Part shown: one piece after another, positions 15,481 to 24,257 of the stretch
Layout: each line of letters begins with the position of its first letter
Position numbering within the stretch: position 1 is the stretch's first letter
Assembly (NCBI GenBank): GCA_028689015.1
Contig: JAQTXC010000001.1
Span: forward strand, 79,758-143,757
Direction: 5' to 3'
DNA from: Dechloromonas sp.
GTDB taxonomy: Bacteria; Pseudomonadota; Gammaproteobacteria; Burkholderiales; Rhodocyclaceae
DNA length: 64,000 nt
Program-made: the position numbers and the translations under genes
The notes under the pieces: model-generated
Told to the model about the DNA's origin: nothing
Database searches by the model: none
What the model saw: only the letters and a program-made list of their open reading frames with translations

Positions 15481-16973
15481 GTTGCGCTGAGGGCGGTGAC
15501 GAGTTGCGTGAATTGCGCTTCCAGTTCCCGGGTCAGGCCGGCCTGATCGAGCAGGGGCGATGTCCGGAGATGCCCCCGTTGCTGGCGACGTTGTGCGTCC
15601 AGACCAGCCGGTTCACTCGCCCAATGGATGGCGGTCTGCACATAGGCTTGGGGGCTCTCGACGATGCCGGCCGGCAAATTTGCGGCGGCGAGAATTGCCG
15701 CTGCGGCACGTTCTGCTGGCAGGGTGCCGGCCAGGGTCAGGCAGGGCAAGCCTTGCCACAAGGCGTGCGCGGTGGTGACGGCGCCGGACAGGGGGAAGGG
15801 CTCAAGGGCAATGTCGATGGCTTCGCCCTGGCGAAAAAAGTCGCTGCGCGATTGTTGCGGCAACAGGTCGACCCGCGCGTTTGGCACGCCGTGGGCCGCC
15901 AGGTGTTGACGCCAGTGTTGGCCTTGGCTGTGCTCGGTGCCCGGCGCGTGTGGGCCGATCAAGCGTAGCCGGGCATTGGGTACGGCATCGAGGATTTGTC
16001 GCCAGCAGGTGAGTGTGGCCGGCGATACTTTTTGTACATTGTTTAGACTACCGAAGGTGACGTAGCCGTTTTGCAGACAAGGGGCCGGGCCGGGCTCGGG
16101 CAGATCAGGTGGCGGGGCGAAACAGGCAAAATGTGGCAGGCGGATGATGGGTTCGGTAGCCCATTGCTCGTTGCCCGGCGGGTCCATGATCGAATCGCTG
16201 AGTCGGCCGTCCAGTACACTCAGGCCACTGGTGCCGTTGTAGCCAAACCAGGTCAGTTGAATGGGGGCGGGACGGCGCGCCAAGGTCAGCAGGCGCGTCC
16301 CTTCGCTATGACCGGAGAGATCAATCAGGATGTCGATGCCGCGGCGCTGGATCAACTTGGCCAGCGCGGCATCGTCCAGGGTTCGGACCTCGTTCCAGTA
16401 ATCAAAGCGCGCTTTGATGCCGGCGGTCAACGCATCCGCCTGGCCGGAAAAGAAGGCGATCAGCTCGAATTGTTGCCGGTCGTGCTGTTCGAGCAGTGGC
16501 GCGAAGAAATCCATCAAGGCGTGCTGGCGAAAGTCGGCCGACAGATAGCCCAGGCGGATTTTTCCCCGGGGTTTTCGCAGGGCGGGGCGGGCAGAGGACA
16601 ATGGGTCGGCAAAGCGCTGGCCCCAGTCGCGGTAAGCGGCGAGTACGGTCGCTGGCGTGCTGCCACAGGCCTGGTGCAGATAGGCCAGGGCAGAGTACAG
16701 GCGCTGATCGTTGGGCGAACGGCGAATGGCCTCACTGATGGCCGCCCGCGCGGCCGGGGGGTCGCCCAGCTTGAGCCGGGCAATCGCCTCACCGAACCAG
16801 GCGTCGCCCAGGCGCGGGGCAATTTGTTGCGCGGCGAGGAAAGTCGCCAGGGCCTCGGCAGGGTCGTGAATTTTCAGGTAGAGAAAACCCACTTCGCACC
16901 ACAAGGCACCGTTCTGGGGGGCCTTGCTCAGGCGTTGCAGGCAGTCCGCCAGTTGTTCCAGCGGGTTCTTCAT
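15474..16973 (-). CDS. SPINDLY/OGT-like O-linked glycosyltransferase (GT41)
   Basis: This protein has 499 residues. N-terminal TPR-like repeats cover ~1-130. A GT41 (O-GlcNAc transferase/SPINDLY-type) catalytic domain begins at ~136 (KIRLGYLSADFRQHALM). It continues with DILIDLSGHSEGTRL, PIQLTWFGYNGTSG (matching the conserved P-Q-V-x-W-x-G-Y-x-x-T-x-G motif) and YVTFGSLNNVQKVSP. This family transfers a sugar to Ser/Thr of proteins. The position 14 kb from flagellin, in an operon of sugar-modifying genes, makes flagellin or a secreted protein the leading acceptor candidate (inference). It overlaps the cyclase gene by 4 bp. Confidence 0.88.
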   Translation of the reverse strand: MKNPLEQLADCLQRLSKAPQNGALWCEVGFLYLKIHDPAEALATFLAAQQIAPRLGDAWFGEAIARLKLGDPPAARAAISEAIRRSPNDQRLYSALAYLHQACGSTPATVLAAYRDWGQRFADPLSSARPALRKPRGKIRLGYLSADFRQHALMDFFAPLLEQHDRQQFELIAFFSGQADALTAGIKARFDYWNEVRTLDDAALAKLIQRRGIDILIDLSGHSEGTRLLTLARRPAPIQLTWFGYNGTSGLSVLDGRLSDSIMDPPGNEQWATEPIIRLPHFACFAPPPDLPEPGPAPCLQNGYVTFGSLNNVQKVSPATLTCWRQILDAVPNARLRLIGPHAPGTEHSQGQHWRQHLAAHGVPNARVDLLPQQSRSDFFRQGEAIDIALEPFPLSGAVTTAHALWQGLPCLTLAGTLPAERAAAAILAAANLPAGIVESPQAYVQTAIHWASEPAGLDAQRRQQRGHLRTSPLLDQAGLTRELEAQFTQLVTALSATC

Positions 16974-18778
16974 GTGGCGGGAGATTTGACGACCCGGTTC
17001 TTGCCGGTTTGCTTGGCGTTATACATGGCTTCATCGGACCGTTTGATAACGGTGGCCTGGGTGTCGTCTTCGGTCATCTGGGTGACGCCGGCACTGAAGG
17101 TGATAAGAATTTTTTCATTGCCACCCAGGAAAAAGCGCTTGGTCAGCTCGCGCTGCAACCGGGTCAGCACGGCGGCCGCATCGTCTAGGGGGGTTTCTGG
17201 CAGCAAGATGATGAATTCTTCGCCGCCGTAACGGGCGACCGTATCTTGCGGGCGCAGGGTTTCCCGGCAGACTTGGGCTAGGTGGATTAGCGCCTGGTCG
17301 CCCACATCGTGACCGTGGGCATCGTTCAATTTCTTGAAATTATCGATGTCAAGCAGGGCGACGCAGAGGACGGTGTCGTGGCGCTGGCTGCGCGCCATTT
17401 CCTTGTTGAACATGTCCTCCAGGCCGCGTCGGTTGAGGACGCCGGTCAATTGGTCATGGCGGACCAGGTTGCTGGTTGCTTCCAGTTCCTTTTCCAGTTG
17501 CTGGATGCGGGCTTCGGATTCTTGAACTTTTTGCTGGGTCGACCGCAACTCGTCACGCGCGTGCTCGGTGCTTAACTGGATGTTGCGCGTTTCCTTCATC
17601 ACTTCGGTGATGACGCTTTCCAATTCCGACAAATCATTGGCCGCGGTGATTTTTTCCGCGCATTCGCCTATCTTGCCGTGATAGTCCGAGGTCGCATCAG
17701 AAAACAACGCCAATTGGTCGATAAAACCGGCCAGCAAGTGCTTGATCGCATCGCGTGCATCACGCAGGCTGCTCTTCAGCTGGCTCTGCTTGAACAGGAC
17801 TTCCTTCAGTCGCCGTTCGGCATCGTCGATGGTCCGCTGCGACAAGGGTTTGTCGATGATGTCGCGCACTATGTCGATTTGGCCATTCAGCCAGACATCA
17901 TCGACGACCAGTTCATGCACGTTTTCAACCAGTAGACGCAGCAACTCCAGTAGGCTGCGCCGCAATTCGGCTTGGTCTTCGGTCAGTAGATCCAGCTTAT
18001 AAGCAAAGCGCTTGAGGCGTTCGAGAAAACCGCTTAGTGCCTCCGGGGCCTGGGCACGACGGACCTCATCGGCCAGTTGGCGGGCATCTGTGGCGAGGGC
18101 CGGGCTGTCCACCAATTGCGTGGCGACGGTTGCTTCTAGCGTGAATGCGAATAACTCGCGCAATTCGGGCAACAAGGCGCCACCCTCATCGACGCTCGCG
18201 GGTGGCGTAGAGGAGAGATCATGCGCTGCCGTATCGTCATCGCCTGCGGCTGATTCGTCCTCTGGCGTGGTCGTATCCACCGTTTTGCCGTTGCCCCAGG
18301 CGCGCAGCAAATTTTGCAGGCGCTTGAACAGGATTTCGGGATTGCTCGCGCTGTTGTTCAGGACATGATCGAGTGATTCACGCTTGCGGGCAGTGGTTAG
18401 CCCCGGGTGTTTGGCTTCGGCCTGGCGTAAAACATCGGCGATCAGGTCGCCCCAAGTCAGGCGCTGGCTATCGACCAGGCCACTGACAAAATCCGCGAGA
18501 TATTTCCGGTAATCGTCCCAACTACTGTTTTTGACGGCTTCGTCGAGCAGACGGGCCAGGCGCAACTGGTCCGGCGAGCTTTTGGGCAGTGCGGCGGCGA
18601 GGGAACGCAATTGTTTGTCGGGAAATTCAGCGGCTTCGGGCTTTTTGCTGCCTGGTCGAGTACCAGCAATCTCGTGGTATAGCGTCAGGTAATTGTCGGG
18701 TGTCGGCGGCGTGCGGCGTACCGCCAACTGTTTCAGCGTCTCGCGGGCGATCTCGAAAGGATTGGTCGGCGTGCTCAT
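16970..18778 (-). CDS. Diguanylate cyclase (GGDEF) leading the glycan operon
   Basis: This is a cytoplasmic GGDEF protein of 602 residues that makes c-di-GMP from two GTP. The active-site motif is GGEEF at about 516-520. An RxxD inhibitory site (RPQD) sits five residues before it, so product inhibition is likely. The C-terminal SFSAGVTQ and DEAMYNAKQTGKNRV motifs are intact. The N-terminal ~330 residues contain no known sensor that I recognise but have a heptad-rich stretch just before GGDEF (~385-430), typical of dimerisation. No transmembrane segment is visible. It is the first gene of eight that overlap or nearly abut; its ATGA overlap with the SPINDLY-like gene links c-di-GMP synthesis to glycan synthesis. 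Confidence 0.92.
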   Translation of the reverse strand: MSTPTNPFEIARETLKQLAVRRTPPTPDNYLTLYHEIAGTRPGSKKPEAAEFPDKQLRSLAAALPKSSPDQLRLARLLDEAVKNSSWDDYRKYLADFVSGLVDSQRLTWGDLIADVLRQAEAKHPGLTTARKRESLDHVLNNSASNPEILFKRLQNLLRAWGNGKTVDTTTPEDESAAGDDDTAAHDLSSTPPASVDEGGALLPELRELFAFTLEATVATQLVDSPALATDARQLADEVRRAQAPEALSGFLERLKRFAYKLDLLTEDQAELRRSLLELLRLLVENVHELVVDDVWLNGQIDIVRDIIDKPLSQRTIDDAERRLKEVLFKQSQLKSSLRDARDAIKHLLAGFIDQLALFSDATSDYHGKIGECAEKITAANDLSELESVITEVMKETRNIQLSTEHARDELRSTQQKVQESEARIQQLEKELEATSNLVRHDQLTGVLNRRGLEDMFNKEMARSQRHDTVLCVALLDIDNFKKLNDAHGHDVGDQALIHLAQVCRETLRPQDTVARYGGEEFIILLPETPLDDAAAVLTRLQRELTKRFFLGGNEKILITFSAGVTQMTEDDTQATVIKRSDEAMYNAKQTGKNRVVKSPAT

Positions 18779-18798: not shown

Positions 18799-18804
18799 TA
18801 TAAT
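18799..18804 (+). promoter_or_regulatory. Probable -10 box of the tRNA gene
   Basis: A perfect TATAAT lies 13 nt before the tRNA 5' end. I see no good -35 box at 17 nt; the upstream position falls in the start region of the divergent cyclase gene. Confidence 0.55.
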
Positions 18805-18817
18805 CCGAGCCTCGCTG

Positions 18818-18891
18818 GCCCCCGTAGCATGAAGGTCGTGCAGTTGATTTGTAATCATCAGGTAGCGGTTCGATTCCGTTCGGGGGCACCA
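18818..18891 (+). tRNA. tRNA-Thr(UGU)-like gene with atypical D-arm
   Basis: The 74-nt segment folds as a cloverleaf. The acceptor is GCCCCCG/CGGGGGC plus ACCA encoded. The D-stem is GCAT/GTGC, the anticodon loop TTTGTAA (anticodon TGT), the T-stem AGCGG/CCGTT and the T-loop TTCGATT. Oddities: the D-loop GAAGGTC lacks the usual A14 and A21, the anticodon stem has one U-U mismatch, and the variable loop is four nt. A TATAAT box and a strong intrinsic terminator flank it, so it looks transcribed. It could be a diverged functional tRNA-Thr or a decaying extra copy. Confidence 0.75.
18848..18862 (+). repeat. 15-bp direct repeat, copy in the tRNA anticodon arm
   Basis: TTTGTAATCATCAGG occurs here and again at 19367-19381, 519 bp downstream in the same orientation. 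It covers the anticodon loop and 3' anticodon stem, a usual crossover site for tyrosine integrases. Confidence 0.85.
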
Positions 18892-18907
18892 GTAAAATCA
18901 AACACTT

Positions 18908-18933
18908 AAGCCATTCTTTGGAATGGCTTTTTT
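18908..18933 (+). terminator. Intrinsic terminator after the tRNA
   Basis: AGCCATTC and GAATGGCT form an 8-bp stem around TTTG, followed by six T. It starts 17 nt after the CCA end. Confidence 0.9.
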
Positions 18934-19366
18934 GTTTTCTGGGTTCTGGGTACGCCATGTGTACGCGAATTTCATCAATGACTCCCGATCGATCTTGTTA
19001 CATGGCGTGTGATGATAGCGCCTTGCGCTACATCTGTTCATGGCTGTTCAAGCATTTAGTCATGCGGCGGTTACGTTTTTTCCGCAGCCGAGGTGCTCCG
19101 GCGTGTGAAAGTACGAAAACGTAGGGCGTGCCCAAGCTTTACGACGAGAGGCGGGGCACCAGCAGTTGGTTACAGTATTTCGAGTCATATGGAATGCGGC
19201 CACGACGACTGCCAACAGTAGAGGTGATAGCTGTTTAATTTGGCCGAATGCTAATTGCATGCTTCACTGAGCCCGGTAATCGATGGTAAAGTTCAATATG
19301 AGAGGGCAGGTCAATTCTTTGAATTTATTGGTGTGTCTGGCTTGGTTGCAGGGGGGCGGGAAGTCT

Positions 19367-19410
19367 TTTGTAATCATCAGGCGCTGGTTTGATTCCTGAT
19401 CGGGGCCACC
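19367..19410 (+). pseudogene. Degenerate copy of the tRNA 3' half (att-like)
   Basis: The sequence begins with the exact 15-bp repeat and continues as a diverged T-arm and acceptor end: GGTTTGATTCC against GGTTCGATTCC in the tRNA, then CGGGGCCACC against CGGGGGCACCA. There is no matching 5' half upstream. It may be the far attachment site of a lost or eroded integrated element, or a decayed tRNA. Confidence 0.65.
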
Positions 19411-19548
19411 CGTGTAACGCCAGTGAGTCATACTGCCCAGTTCGTCGACGGCTACTTTGGTATTTTCAAAGCATACCCGAGCATCGGCGTGATTATGTTT
19501 TTCGCCTCGGGTTTCTGCTAGGCGAGCCAAGCTCTTGTTCGTGCTAAG

Positions 19549-19559
19549 GTGATTATCAC
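19549..19559. promoter_or_regulatory. 11-bp palindrome upstream of the TonB receptor
   Basis: GTGATTATCAC is a perfect inverted repeat (GTGAT-T-ATCAC) ending 38 bp before the receptor start codon. It is well placed for an operator, but I cannot assign a regulator. Confidence 0.35.
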
Positions 19560-19597
19560 TTTGGTCGTAGCTGTAAGCGATAGGGAACAAATTTGTC

Positions 19598-21782: not shown

Positions 21783-22280
21783 TTACAGATAACGACGGCG
21801 CAAGCCGTGGTCGATGGACAGCCGGCCGGGGCCAAGCAGGACCAAAGGCAAGAACATGCCGATAAACAGCGCCGGTAATTTGAAATTGCCAAAGCCTTGA
21901 TCGGTAAAAACATAGCCCTGCATTAATTCGCCCCAGGTGTGCCATTGGGCAGGCCAGTGCACGCTGATCATGGCGACTACGGTCAACACGATTAAAGAAA
22001 CCGAAAAGAAACTGGTGGCCAGGCCAACGATGAGCGCGATTCCTCCCAGTAATTCAAACCAGGTTGCCATCTGCCAGCTGATCTCGGGGGGGACGAGATT
22101 GAACGGGAAGGGGAATTGCCCTTGGATATCGGCGAACCAGTTGCTGCCGTTGAATTTCTCCAGGCCGGATTCGAAATAATCCCAGCCGAGCAGGACGCGC
22201 AGGCTCAGCAAGCCCAGCCAGAGACCGAGTAGGTCGATGCCATTTAGGCCTTGGCGGGCGATGTGTCGTAGGGTGTTCAT
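21783..22280 (-). CDS. DoxX family membrane protein (HvfD-like)
   Basis: This 165-residue integral membrane protein of the DoxX family has about four transmembrane segments (LDLLGLWLGLLSLRVLLGWDYFESG; LLGGIALIVGLATSFFSVSLIVLTVVAMI; ALFIGMFLPLVLLGPG). DoxX proteins commonly close hvf/MNIO RiPP operons (called HvfD there), with an undefined redox or quinone-linked role. The start overlaps the end of the HvfC-like gene by 4 bp. It is the final gene of the four-gene cluster. Confidence 0.87.
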   Translation of the reverse strand: MNTLRHIARQGLNGIDLLGLWLGLLSLRVLLGWDYFESGLEKFNGSNWFADIQGQFPFPFNLVPPEISWQMATWFELLGGIALIVGLATSFFSVSLIVLTVVAMISVHWPAQWHTWGELMQGYVFTDQGFGNFKLPALFIGMFLPLVLLGPGRLSIDHGLRRRYL

Positions 22281-23017
22281 GGATGACTCCCAAGAATGAT
22301 GCCTTGTTGCCGTAGCGTATCCAGTATGCTGCGACCCTGTTCGACCAGTTGTTCTGGGTGCGGGTGTTGTAACTCGCTGGCTAGACTAAGTAAGGCTTGG
22401 CGGCCAGGGCCGGGGGCGGTGGTTAACAGGCCGACCAGACGGTGGGTGGTCGGATTCACTTCAGAAAACTGGACGCGTTCGTCGCCGTCGCGATAGACGA
22501 TCAGGCAGCTCAGCGCCGTTTTGCGTGGCCGCCAGTTGGGGCCGATGCGGTGTACCGGCCAGTGGTAGGCAAGATTCATTAGCGCCGGGTTGAGAATGAC
22601 GTTTTGTGCCAGTAGATCGCCTGCGGGGTCATACGTGATTTTTGGCGTTTCCAGCAGGTCGACCGCAAGTTCCGCCCATTCGTAGTGCGCCAGTTCGCCT
22701 AGCCAGCGGGGATGGGGCAGGCGGGCGTGGTCGCTGTTCAGGTAACGGACGAAGTCGCGGGGAATGTCGCGGAACCAGGCACTGTCGAGTGGCCAGTCGC
22801 GGTAAAAGGCACGCTTGAAACGCAGCCAGCGGTTCGCGCCGAGCAGCTCGCGGCAGACCGGGAAGCAGGGGTCGAGAAAGCTGCCGATGTTGTTGAACAA
22901 TAGTTCGTTATAAACTGCCATCCGGCGGGCCGGCACGCCGGCCGGGCGGGGGGTATGCGCGGGGTCGCGCAGATGGCGGCCGAAGGCGCGCTGAAAATCC
23001 TGAAAATCGGCGCTCAT
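22277..23017 (-). CDS. HvfC-like RiPP maturation partner (DUF2063)
   Basis: This 246-residue protein has an N-terminal DUF2063/putative DNA-binding domain (FQRAFGRHLRDPA; RMAVYNELLFNNIGSFLDPCFPVCRELLG; WLRFKRAFYRDW) and a C-terminal domain with HLRVLVYRD-type features (CLIVYRDGDERVQFSEVNP). In hvf and related clusters this protein binds the precursor leader and delivers it to the MNIO enzyme. It overlaps both the hvfB-like gene (4 bp) and the DoxX gene (4 bp), consistent with a stoichiometric HvfBC complex. Confidence 0.88.
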   Translation of the reverse strand: MSADFQDFQRAFGRHLRDPAHTPRPAGVPARRMAVYNELLFNNIGSFLDPCFPVCRELLGANRWLRFKRAFYRDWPLDSAWFRDIPRDFVRYLNSDHARLPHPRWLGELAHYEWAELAVDLLETPKITYDPAGDLLAQNVILNPALMNLAYHWPVHRIGPNWRPRKTALSCLIVYRDGDERVQFSEVNPTTHRLVGLLTTAPGPGRQALLSLASELQHPHPEQLVEQGRSILDTLRQQGIILGSHP

Positions 23018-23880
23018 GCGCTTCTCCGTTGCGGCGGTGCGGCGGCGGCTTGCAAACGGGCAATGTGGGCGACTTCCGCGGTCAACGTCGTCAGGTCGGG
23101 AATATTGAAATCACGCTCCAGGCAGGTTGGCAGATCGCCACCCAGGCGTTGGTAGGCACGCGTCAGCAGCGACCATACGGGGTCGATGACGGCAGCGCCG
23201 TGTGTGTCAATGAGCAGGCCATCTGACTCGACGTAATGACCGGCGACATGCAGGTAGGCTGTTCGTTCCAGTGGTAGGGCATCGAGGAAAGCGATGGGGT
23301 CGAAGGCAAAATTGCAGCTATTGACGTAGATATTATTGATGTCGAGGTGGAGCAAACAATCGGCTTGCGTAATTACGGCACGGATGAACTCGCTCTCACT
23401 CATTTCTGCGCCGGGTGGGGCGACATAGTAAGAGGCGTTTTCGATCGCAATGCGTTGCCCCAGGATGTCCTGAGCCTGGGCAATACGGTCAACCGTCCAG
23501 CGGACGGCTTTTTCAGTCAGCGGGATGGGGAGCAGATCGTAGAGCTGATGGGCATCAGACGACCAGGATAGGTGTTCGGTGTATAGGGTCATGCCATGTT
23601 CGCGCATGAAGGCTTTGATCCGGCGGAGCAGCGCTTCATCGAGGGGCGCGATACCCCCCAGCGACAGCGACAGGCCGTGACAGACGAAAGGGTAGCGTTC
23701 GGTGAATTCGCGCAGGTCGCGCGCCGAACGGCCGCCAATCCCGGCCCAGTTTTCCGGAGCCACTTCAAAGAAGCGGATGCAGTCGGGAACTCCCTGACGC
23801 AGGGCGCCGATCAACTCCCGGCGAAACCCGAGCCCGGCACCCTGCGGATGCTGGGGGGTGACATATGGGGGTGAGGACAT
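23014..23880 (-). CDS. MNIO enzyme, HvfB-like (DUF692)
   Basis: This is a multinuclear non-heme iron-dependent oxidative enzyme of 288 residues, the usual MNIO length. The TIM-barrel metal ligands are visible in HGLSLSLGG, YTEHLSW, IENASYYV, HLDINNIYVN, YLHVAGHY, IDTHGAAV and LERDFNIP. Family knowledge: MNIOs such as MbnB and HvfB oxidise Cys residues of a precursor peptide to oxazolone/thioamide or thiooxazole groups that bind copper. The substrate here is most likely the Cys-repeat peptide encoded 62 bp upstream. It is translationally coupled to the HvfC-like gene. Confidence 0.94.
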   Translation of the reverse strand: MSSPPYVTPQHPQGAGLGFRRELIGALRQGVPDCIRFFEVAPENWAGIGGRSARDLREFTERYPFVCHGLSLSLGGIAPLDEALLRRIKAFMREHGMTLYTEHLSWSSDAHQLYDLLPIPLTEKAVRWTVDRIAQAQDILGQRIAIENASYYVAPPGAEMSESEFIRAVITQADCLLHLDINNIYVNSCNFAFDPIAFLDALPLERTAYLHVAGHYVESDGLLIDTHGAAVIDPVWSLLTRAYQRLGGDLPTCLERDFNIPDLTTLTAEVAHIARLQAAAAPPQRRSA

Positions 23881-23907
23881 GGGCGACTCCAGCTTAGGTG
23901 AGGGGGA

Positions 23908-23929
23908 ACGGCGGGCTAGCGCCCGCCGT
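23908..23929 (-). promoter_or_regulatory. Strong hairpin between precursor and enzyme genes
   Basis: ACGGCGGGC and GCCCGCCGT form a perfect 9-bp GC-rich stem with a TAGC loop in the 62-bp gap between hvfA- and hvfB-like genes. No T-run follows on the minus strand. It probably sets the ratio of precursor to enzyme by partial termination or 3'-end protection, as in many RiPP operons (inference). Confidence 0.6.
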
Positions 23930-23942
23930 CACTACAATTGAC

Positions 23943-24257
23943 TTACTTGTTGCCACCGCAGGCGGCATCTTTCTTCTTGTCGCCACCACATTTTGCTTCG
24001 GCGGCTTTTTTATCGGCACCACATTTGGCATCGCTCTTCTTGTCGGCGCCGCACTTGGCTTCGGTTTTTTTCTTGTCAGCGCCGCACTTGGCTTCGCCGC
24101 ATTTGCCATCGCTCTTTTTGTCTGCCGCAGCCAGTTGGTAGCCGGCTTCCAGTTTCTGGGTCGAGAACGGTGAGTCAGCGGCCTGGGCCAGCGGGCTCAG
24201 CGTCACTGCGGCAAATGCGGAGCCAAGGGCGAGGGATACGAATTGTTGCTTTTTCAT
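23943..24257 (-). CDS. HvfA-like Cys-repeat RiPP precursor
   Basis: This is a 104-residue secreted precursor peptide. A Sec signal peptide covers ~1-26 (MKKQQFVSLALGSAFAAVTL, then QAAD). A short leader (~27-45) is followed by a Lys/Asp-rich repeat core with six Cys at ~10-13-residue spacing, mostly in the form [ED]AKCGADKK (first unit DGKCG, last AACGG). Canonical HvfA proteins carry EGKCG motifs that the MNIO modifies; here Gly is replaced by Ala in most units. The SD GGAGAAAT precedes ATG 24257. It leads a four-gene operon hvfA-B-C-D. The modified peptide is expected to sit in the periplasm and bind copper (inference from family). Confidence 0.88.
   Translation of the reverse strand: MKKQQFVSLALGSAFAAVTLSPLAQAADSPFSTQKLEAGYQLAAADKKSDGKCGEAKCGADKKKTEAKCGADKKSDAKCGADKKAAEAKCGGDKKKDAACGGNK

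Follow-up and report, generated by a model that had tools for sequence, protein, structure and literature searches.

The locus studied here lies in a 64-kb stretch of DNA from a Dechloromonas genome (the window, 64,000 nucleotides), in which ARAGORN recognised a single tRNA gene, a tRNA-Thr with anticodon tgt at 18818-18891 on the forward strand. The gene matches the covariance model of Rfam RF00005, with a UGU anticodon, at 57.2 bits (gathering score 29), and a partial copy of it lies 519 bp downstream. From left to right, the features of the locus are as follows.

16970-18778, reverse strand: GGDEF-domain gene (Pfam GGDEF, 151 bits), the conserved upstream neighbour of the tRNA gene
18799-18804, forward strand: -10 box TATAAT of the tRNA promoter, read from the sequence
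18818-18891, forward strand: tRNA-Thr(UGU), CCA encoded, with G14, A15 and C21, a 7-nt D-loop, U28-U42 and a 4-nt variable loop
18848-18862, forward strand: 15-bp identity block in the tRNA gene, from anticodon loop to variable loop; putative crossover region (attL), the same sublocation as the 3' fragments of G241 and G234
18892-19019, forward strand: putative left end of an erased element, 86% identical to the DNA after the same tRNA in G003 and L128
18900-18937, forward strand: intrinsic-terminator-like hairpin and T-run, probably brought by the element (filled sites have it at their left ends, whereas native right flanks lack it)
19020-19366, no strand assigned: rest of the scar, without recognisable gene or homologue
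19367-19410, forward strand: displaced 3' half of the tRNA gene, from anticodon loop to 3' end; putative attR scar with a decaying T-stem
19411-19597, no strand assigned: right flank, not native, the native neighbour IclR being 65.6 kb off

The tRNA itself departs from the usual pattern at several points. Specifically, the near-universal A14 and A21 (usual, not strictly defining) are replaced by G14 and C21, position 15 is A, and the anticodon stem contains a U28-U42 mismatch; the D-loop has 7 nt, the variable loop 4 nt (AGGT), and CCA is encoded. By comparison, position 14 was A in 29/29 other distinct tRNAs sampled from the same genome. A first-pass annotation, made from the letters alone, had singled out the missing A14 and A21 and the U-U mismatch, all of which can be read in the sequence, and had credited the gene with a promoter and a terminator, which are likewise present: the TATAAT box stops 13 bp short of the gene, and a hairpin with a T-run follows the 3' end. 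The promoter is conserved, in that a GCTATAAT block is kept upstream of tRNA-Thr(UGU) in relatives, and in most relatives from the genus the GGDEF gene sits at roughly -115 to -120 relative to the tRNA. A fifth D-stem pair, between G14 and C21, is conceivable.

The same annotation had noticed an exact 15-bp repeat and a diverged T-arm downstream, without a 5' half, and coordinates and alignments agree with it. The direct repeat TTTGTAATCATCAGG occupies 18848-18862 and 19367-19381, with 83% identity extending over 30 nt, and the 5' half of the tRNA is not present at the second copy. In searches of the whole genome, the partial copy is 81% identical to the adjacent tRNA over 47 bp (E = 8.5e-5), and it matches a second natural type of 3' half, the GCGTTGG type, at 87% (E = 3.7e-9); given these E-values, chance is an unreasonable explanation. 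The fragment has drifted so that its T-stem no longer pairs fully, and its 3'-half type is read from the 87% match. It starts at the same part of the tRNA as do the fragments left by islands in G241 and G234.

Comparing the same locus among relatives for an inserted island, as the first-pass annotation had proposed, yields both filled and empty versions. G241 and G239 are two complete, close genomes of which the latter has an empty site and the former a filled one: in G241, the intact tRNA is followed by a terminator and, after 31 kb, by a second copy that spans the anticodon stem through the 3' end and whose flank equals that of G239. The 31-kb island includes heavy-metal-type efflux genes, as read from its ORFs, and an integrase with Arm-DNA-bind_3 and integrase domains. 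In G234, the island measures 35.3 kb, with the tRNA and a terminator at its left and, at its right, a 3' fragment joined directly to the native IclR flank, with the integrase ~200 bp from that fragment and no terminator on that side. Because the left side has a terminator and the native IclR side has none, the terminator is best read as carried by the element. Further, G636 aligns with G249 and G009 at 87-88% identity as far as the tRNA end and diverges from there: G249 and G009 continue with GCGTTGG and IclR, whereas G636 has a TAGCGG T-arm, a terminator and an element left end that matches the G241 island at 88% identity over 3.1 kb. The difference of G636 from G249 and G009 is what identifies integration here as a swap of the tRNA 3' half. 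A tree of the GGDEF gene upstream, built by a quick method from 83 rows, requires at least 25 changes of T-stem type and at least 13 of the terminator, counts that mix swaps with point changes. Other integrases lie within ~0.7 kb of tRNA-Thr(UGU) in several other Rhodocyclaceae, which marks this site as a recurrent target.

The 31-kb (G241, L289-L290) and 35-kb (G234, L293 and L362) islands carry related integrases. That of G241 looks truncated (364 aa, with an incomplete catalytic domain), and its island may be stuck.

The window presents the swap pattern of these relatives, with a TAGCGG T-arm and terminator at the tRNA and a GCGTTGG-like displaced copy, and comparison also places an element-type left end directly after the gene. 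We conclude, with a probability of roughly 85%, that the locus combines a tRNA of a lineage-specific type with the scar of an integrated island that has since been lost but for its left end and the displaced fragment. Under this reading, an island with a tyrosine integrase, like those of the relatives, would have crossed over at the anticodon loop and supplied a new 3' half (with a TAGCGG...CCGTTC T-arm) together with a terminator, restoring the tRNA as a hybrid gene, so that everything from the anticodon loop onwards would be element-supplied. The old 3' half, of the GCGTTGG...CCGACC type, would have been pushed to the far end of the island, and the island would later have disappeared except for ~130 bp of its left end and the fragment 519 bp downstream. 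That the same integration took place in the window genome, and the order and mechanism of the loss, we infer from the two ends only, since the scar contains no integrase or other element gene. Specifically, neither an integrase nor a phage gene is found in the scar (18892-19366), which is thus a remnant rather than an island; the integrase genes of this genome sit on other contigs. No homologues of 19020-19366 were found in 40 genomes of the genus, or in a six-frame comparison with the compared loci. In G003, one of the two matches to the left end, integrase-domain DNA lies 5.3-5.8 kb downstream of the tRNA, although the 128-bp segment could also be ordinary intergenic DNA common to the window and G003. 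The first-pass annotation had offered two readings, an integration site with a nearly erased element or a tRNA in decay; the former is well supported, by the filled and empty sites of relatives and the shared fragment start, and the latter is not.

What counts against the loss of an island is the right side of the locus, where the flank is not native and the stretch between the scar and IclR is occupied by core genes. Place searches served to examine synteny. In the window genome, IclR lies 65.6 kb downstream of the tRNA, with the last codons of its C-terminus apparently replaced (a reading of the sequence). The intervening DNA (window 19411-64000 plus L338 and L339) carries core genes, among them monomeric IDH, AceK and PNTB, and the first of these lies 33 kb from the tRNA here, compared with 98 kb to >1 Mb in complete relatives. 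A 65-kb island between the scar and IclR was considered and rejected, as the segment carries these core genes. To the lost island one must add either an error of the draft assembly or a subsequent rearrangement that broke near the scar, and such a rearrangement could be related to the scar or independent of it. In the related version, the 519-bp scar would itself be a rearrangement joint, produced by recombination between two distant att-like tRNA fragments rather than by an internal deletion within one island. The distance to IclR, its altered C-terminus and the displaced core genes all speak for such a joint; against it, deletion of a single island is enough to account for the left end and the displaced fragment, and no second tRNA fragment was found near IclR. 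We consider the joint rather unlikely, without losing sight of it. A 3554-codon repetitive ORF adjoins IclR just outside the window (L338-L339, window coordinates 72955-83619), and a similar long repetitive ORF follows ParA in G239 (L291).

Another alternative is that the partial copy arose by local duplication of the tRNA 3' half, through replication slippage or unequal recombination, and is no attachment-site scar at all. The short distance between the copies and a window devoid of integrases would suit it, but the fragment is nearer to the other natural 3'-half type than to the tRNA beside it, begins at the anticodon loop as the real island fragments at tRNA-Thr do, and lies downstream of a tRNA that bears an element-type terminator and left end. 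Local duplication seems improbable on these grounds. A strict pattern search of the viral contigs for the element 3' half as an attP gave 0 matches.

The unusual bases of the tRNA pose a different question from the partial copy, and the two are separate oddities, because the former lie mainly in the 5' half, which elements do not replace, while integration replaces the 3' half. Comparison shows the odd tRNA to be conserved: it recurs in the genus with an invariant D-arm, and the same D-arm occurs in ~15 Rhodocyclaceae genera among the matches listed, including Dechloromonas, Azonexus, Accumulibacter, Propionivibrio and Rhodocyclus. G14 and C21 are invariant in all relatives that carry the type. 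A survey of the family that placed no constraint on the D-arm sequence returned 73 genes with a 7-nt-loop D-arm; in 67 the D-arm is exactly GCATGAAGGTCGTGC, one has a single change (C13) and five are canonical, with no intermediates between the two forms among the 73, so the odd D-arm is unchanged in 67 of 68 odd-type genes. Outside the family, the pattern gave no match in 398 other Pseudomonadota genomes with up to two mismatches allowed. Among 23 distinct odd-tRNA sequences, bacterial and phage, chosen by hand, two-sided changes occur in 13 of 21 pairs, with strong covariation of the acceptor, anticodon and T-stems, and 95.9% of stem cells are paired, a value as high being reached in 0 of 500 shuffles; the column pair 27-41 (U28-U42) is unpaired in 19 of the 23.

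Further, no second tRNA-Thr(UGU) was found in the genome, either by ARAGORN on most of its 47 tRNA loci or by a whole-genome anticodon-pattern search, a check for another such gene that the first-pass annotation had advised; tRNA-Thr(GGU) and tRNA-Thr(CGU) are present. With no other such tRNA found, the gene at 18818-18891 is the expected reader of ACA. Judged by its sequence and that of its relatives, it appears to be a working tRNA-Thr(UGU) of lineage-specific type. Decay of the gene, with the partial copy a random tRNA fragment, is what the lost A14 and A21 and the U-U mismatch suggest from one genome alone, but it is refuted on present data by the near-invariant D-arm, the covarying and almost fully paired stems, the conserved promoter and the lack of any other tRNA-Thr(UGU) found in the genome, and we regard it as wholly implausible.

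In some sister genera, a canonical tRNA-Thr(UGU) occupies the same place, between GGDEF and IclR genes, from which it follows that the odd gene resides at the ancestral locus. The two types share the UGU anticodon, G1-C72, C2-G71 and an encoded CCA in these Rhodocyclaceae, and they differ in the D-arm, GCATGAAGGTCGTGC in the odd type and GCTCAGTTGGTAGAGC in the canonical one. The odd type also lacks A14 and A21 and has A15, a 4-nt variable loop and, mostly, U28-U42. The main known cases of an altered U8-A14 contact are special tRNAs such as tRNA-Pyl and tRNA-Sec (PMC7609411), with which the apparently working odd tRNA-Thr shares a change of the near-universal 8-14(-21) tertiary contact. Unlike them, it is an ordinary elongator with an otherwise standard cloverleaf, in which U8 is kept and A14 and A21 are changed. 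The literature searched yielded no clade-wide elongator tRNA of this type, which does not prove that none has been described. Should the mature RNA really have the odd core, ~15 genera would decode ACA without the near-universal 8-14-21 contact, and the tRNA would constitute a natural test of what a tRNA core requires.

The exact odd D-arm with a UGU anticodon also occurs in 36 viral contigs of IMG/VR (L300-L335), many of which have more than 10 tRNA genes; among the contigs tested, several encode phage proteins such as portal, terminase, tape measure and primase. The phage tRNAs are 1 to 16 bases away from their nearest bacterial counterpart, and that of L320 is one base off the tRNA in the window. 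In isolated phages and plasmids, the search for the odd type gave only partial, weak matches to other tRNAs. The locus shared with the canonical gene speaks for evolution in the host and capture by phages, since tRNA-targeting elements replace the 3' half, not the D-arm. As no intermediates are seen, a phage gene may instead have replaced the host's. Specifically, the clade's only tRNA-Thr(UGU) might be of phage origin, a gene with a non-canonical core that took over the locus of the ancestral canonical one, turned essential and still has its like in the tRNA arrays of large uncultured phages; we think this unlikely. Whichever the direction, the odd core in uncultured phages could mark phages of Rhodocyclaceae such as Accumulibacter and Dechloromonas.

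Two further occurrences came to light. One termite-gut MAG contains two different odd-type tRNA-Thr(UGU) genes (L150 and L172), with a GGDEF gene near both, which may reflect either a duplication or a mixed bin. A contig assigned to Dechloromonas aromatica by binning (L167) has Gly, Pro, Ser and Ala tRNAs clustered with a tRNA-Thr of the odd type whose acceptor stem is different, and looks like phage DNA in the bin.

With respect to known systems, the scar is an ordinary but well-documented case of a tRNA island swapping the 3' half and terminator. Islands of the Islander type that cross over at the anticodon loop of a tRNA gene, restore the gene and displace a fragment of it are of the textbook kind (PMC4383910), and the present locus resembles them in the tyrosine integrase and restored 3' half of the relatives' islands, in the regenerated gene and displaced 3' fragment at the two ends, and in the crossover at the anticodon loop. 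In contrast to them, the island in the window is down to ~480 bp and without genes, the element also brings a terminator, and the target tRNA is of an unusual type.

Elsewhere in the window, an operon at 21783-24257 encodes a DoxX-like protein, a DUF2063-like protein, a RiPP enzyme of the MbnB/TglH/ChrH type (Pfam, 329 bits) and a small Cys-rich protein, which could serve this enzyme as its precursor.
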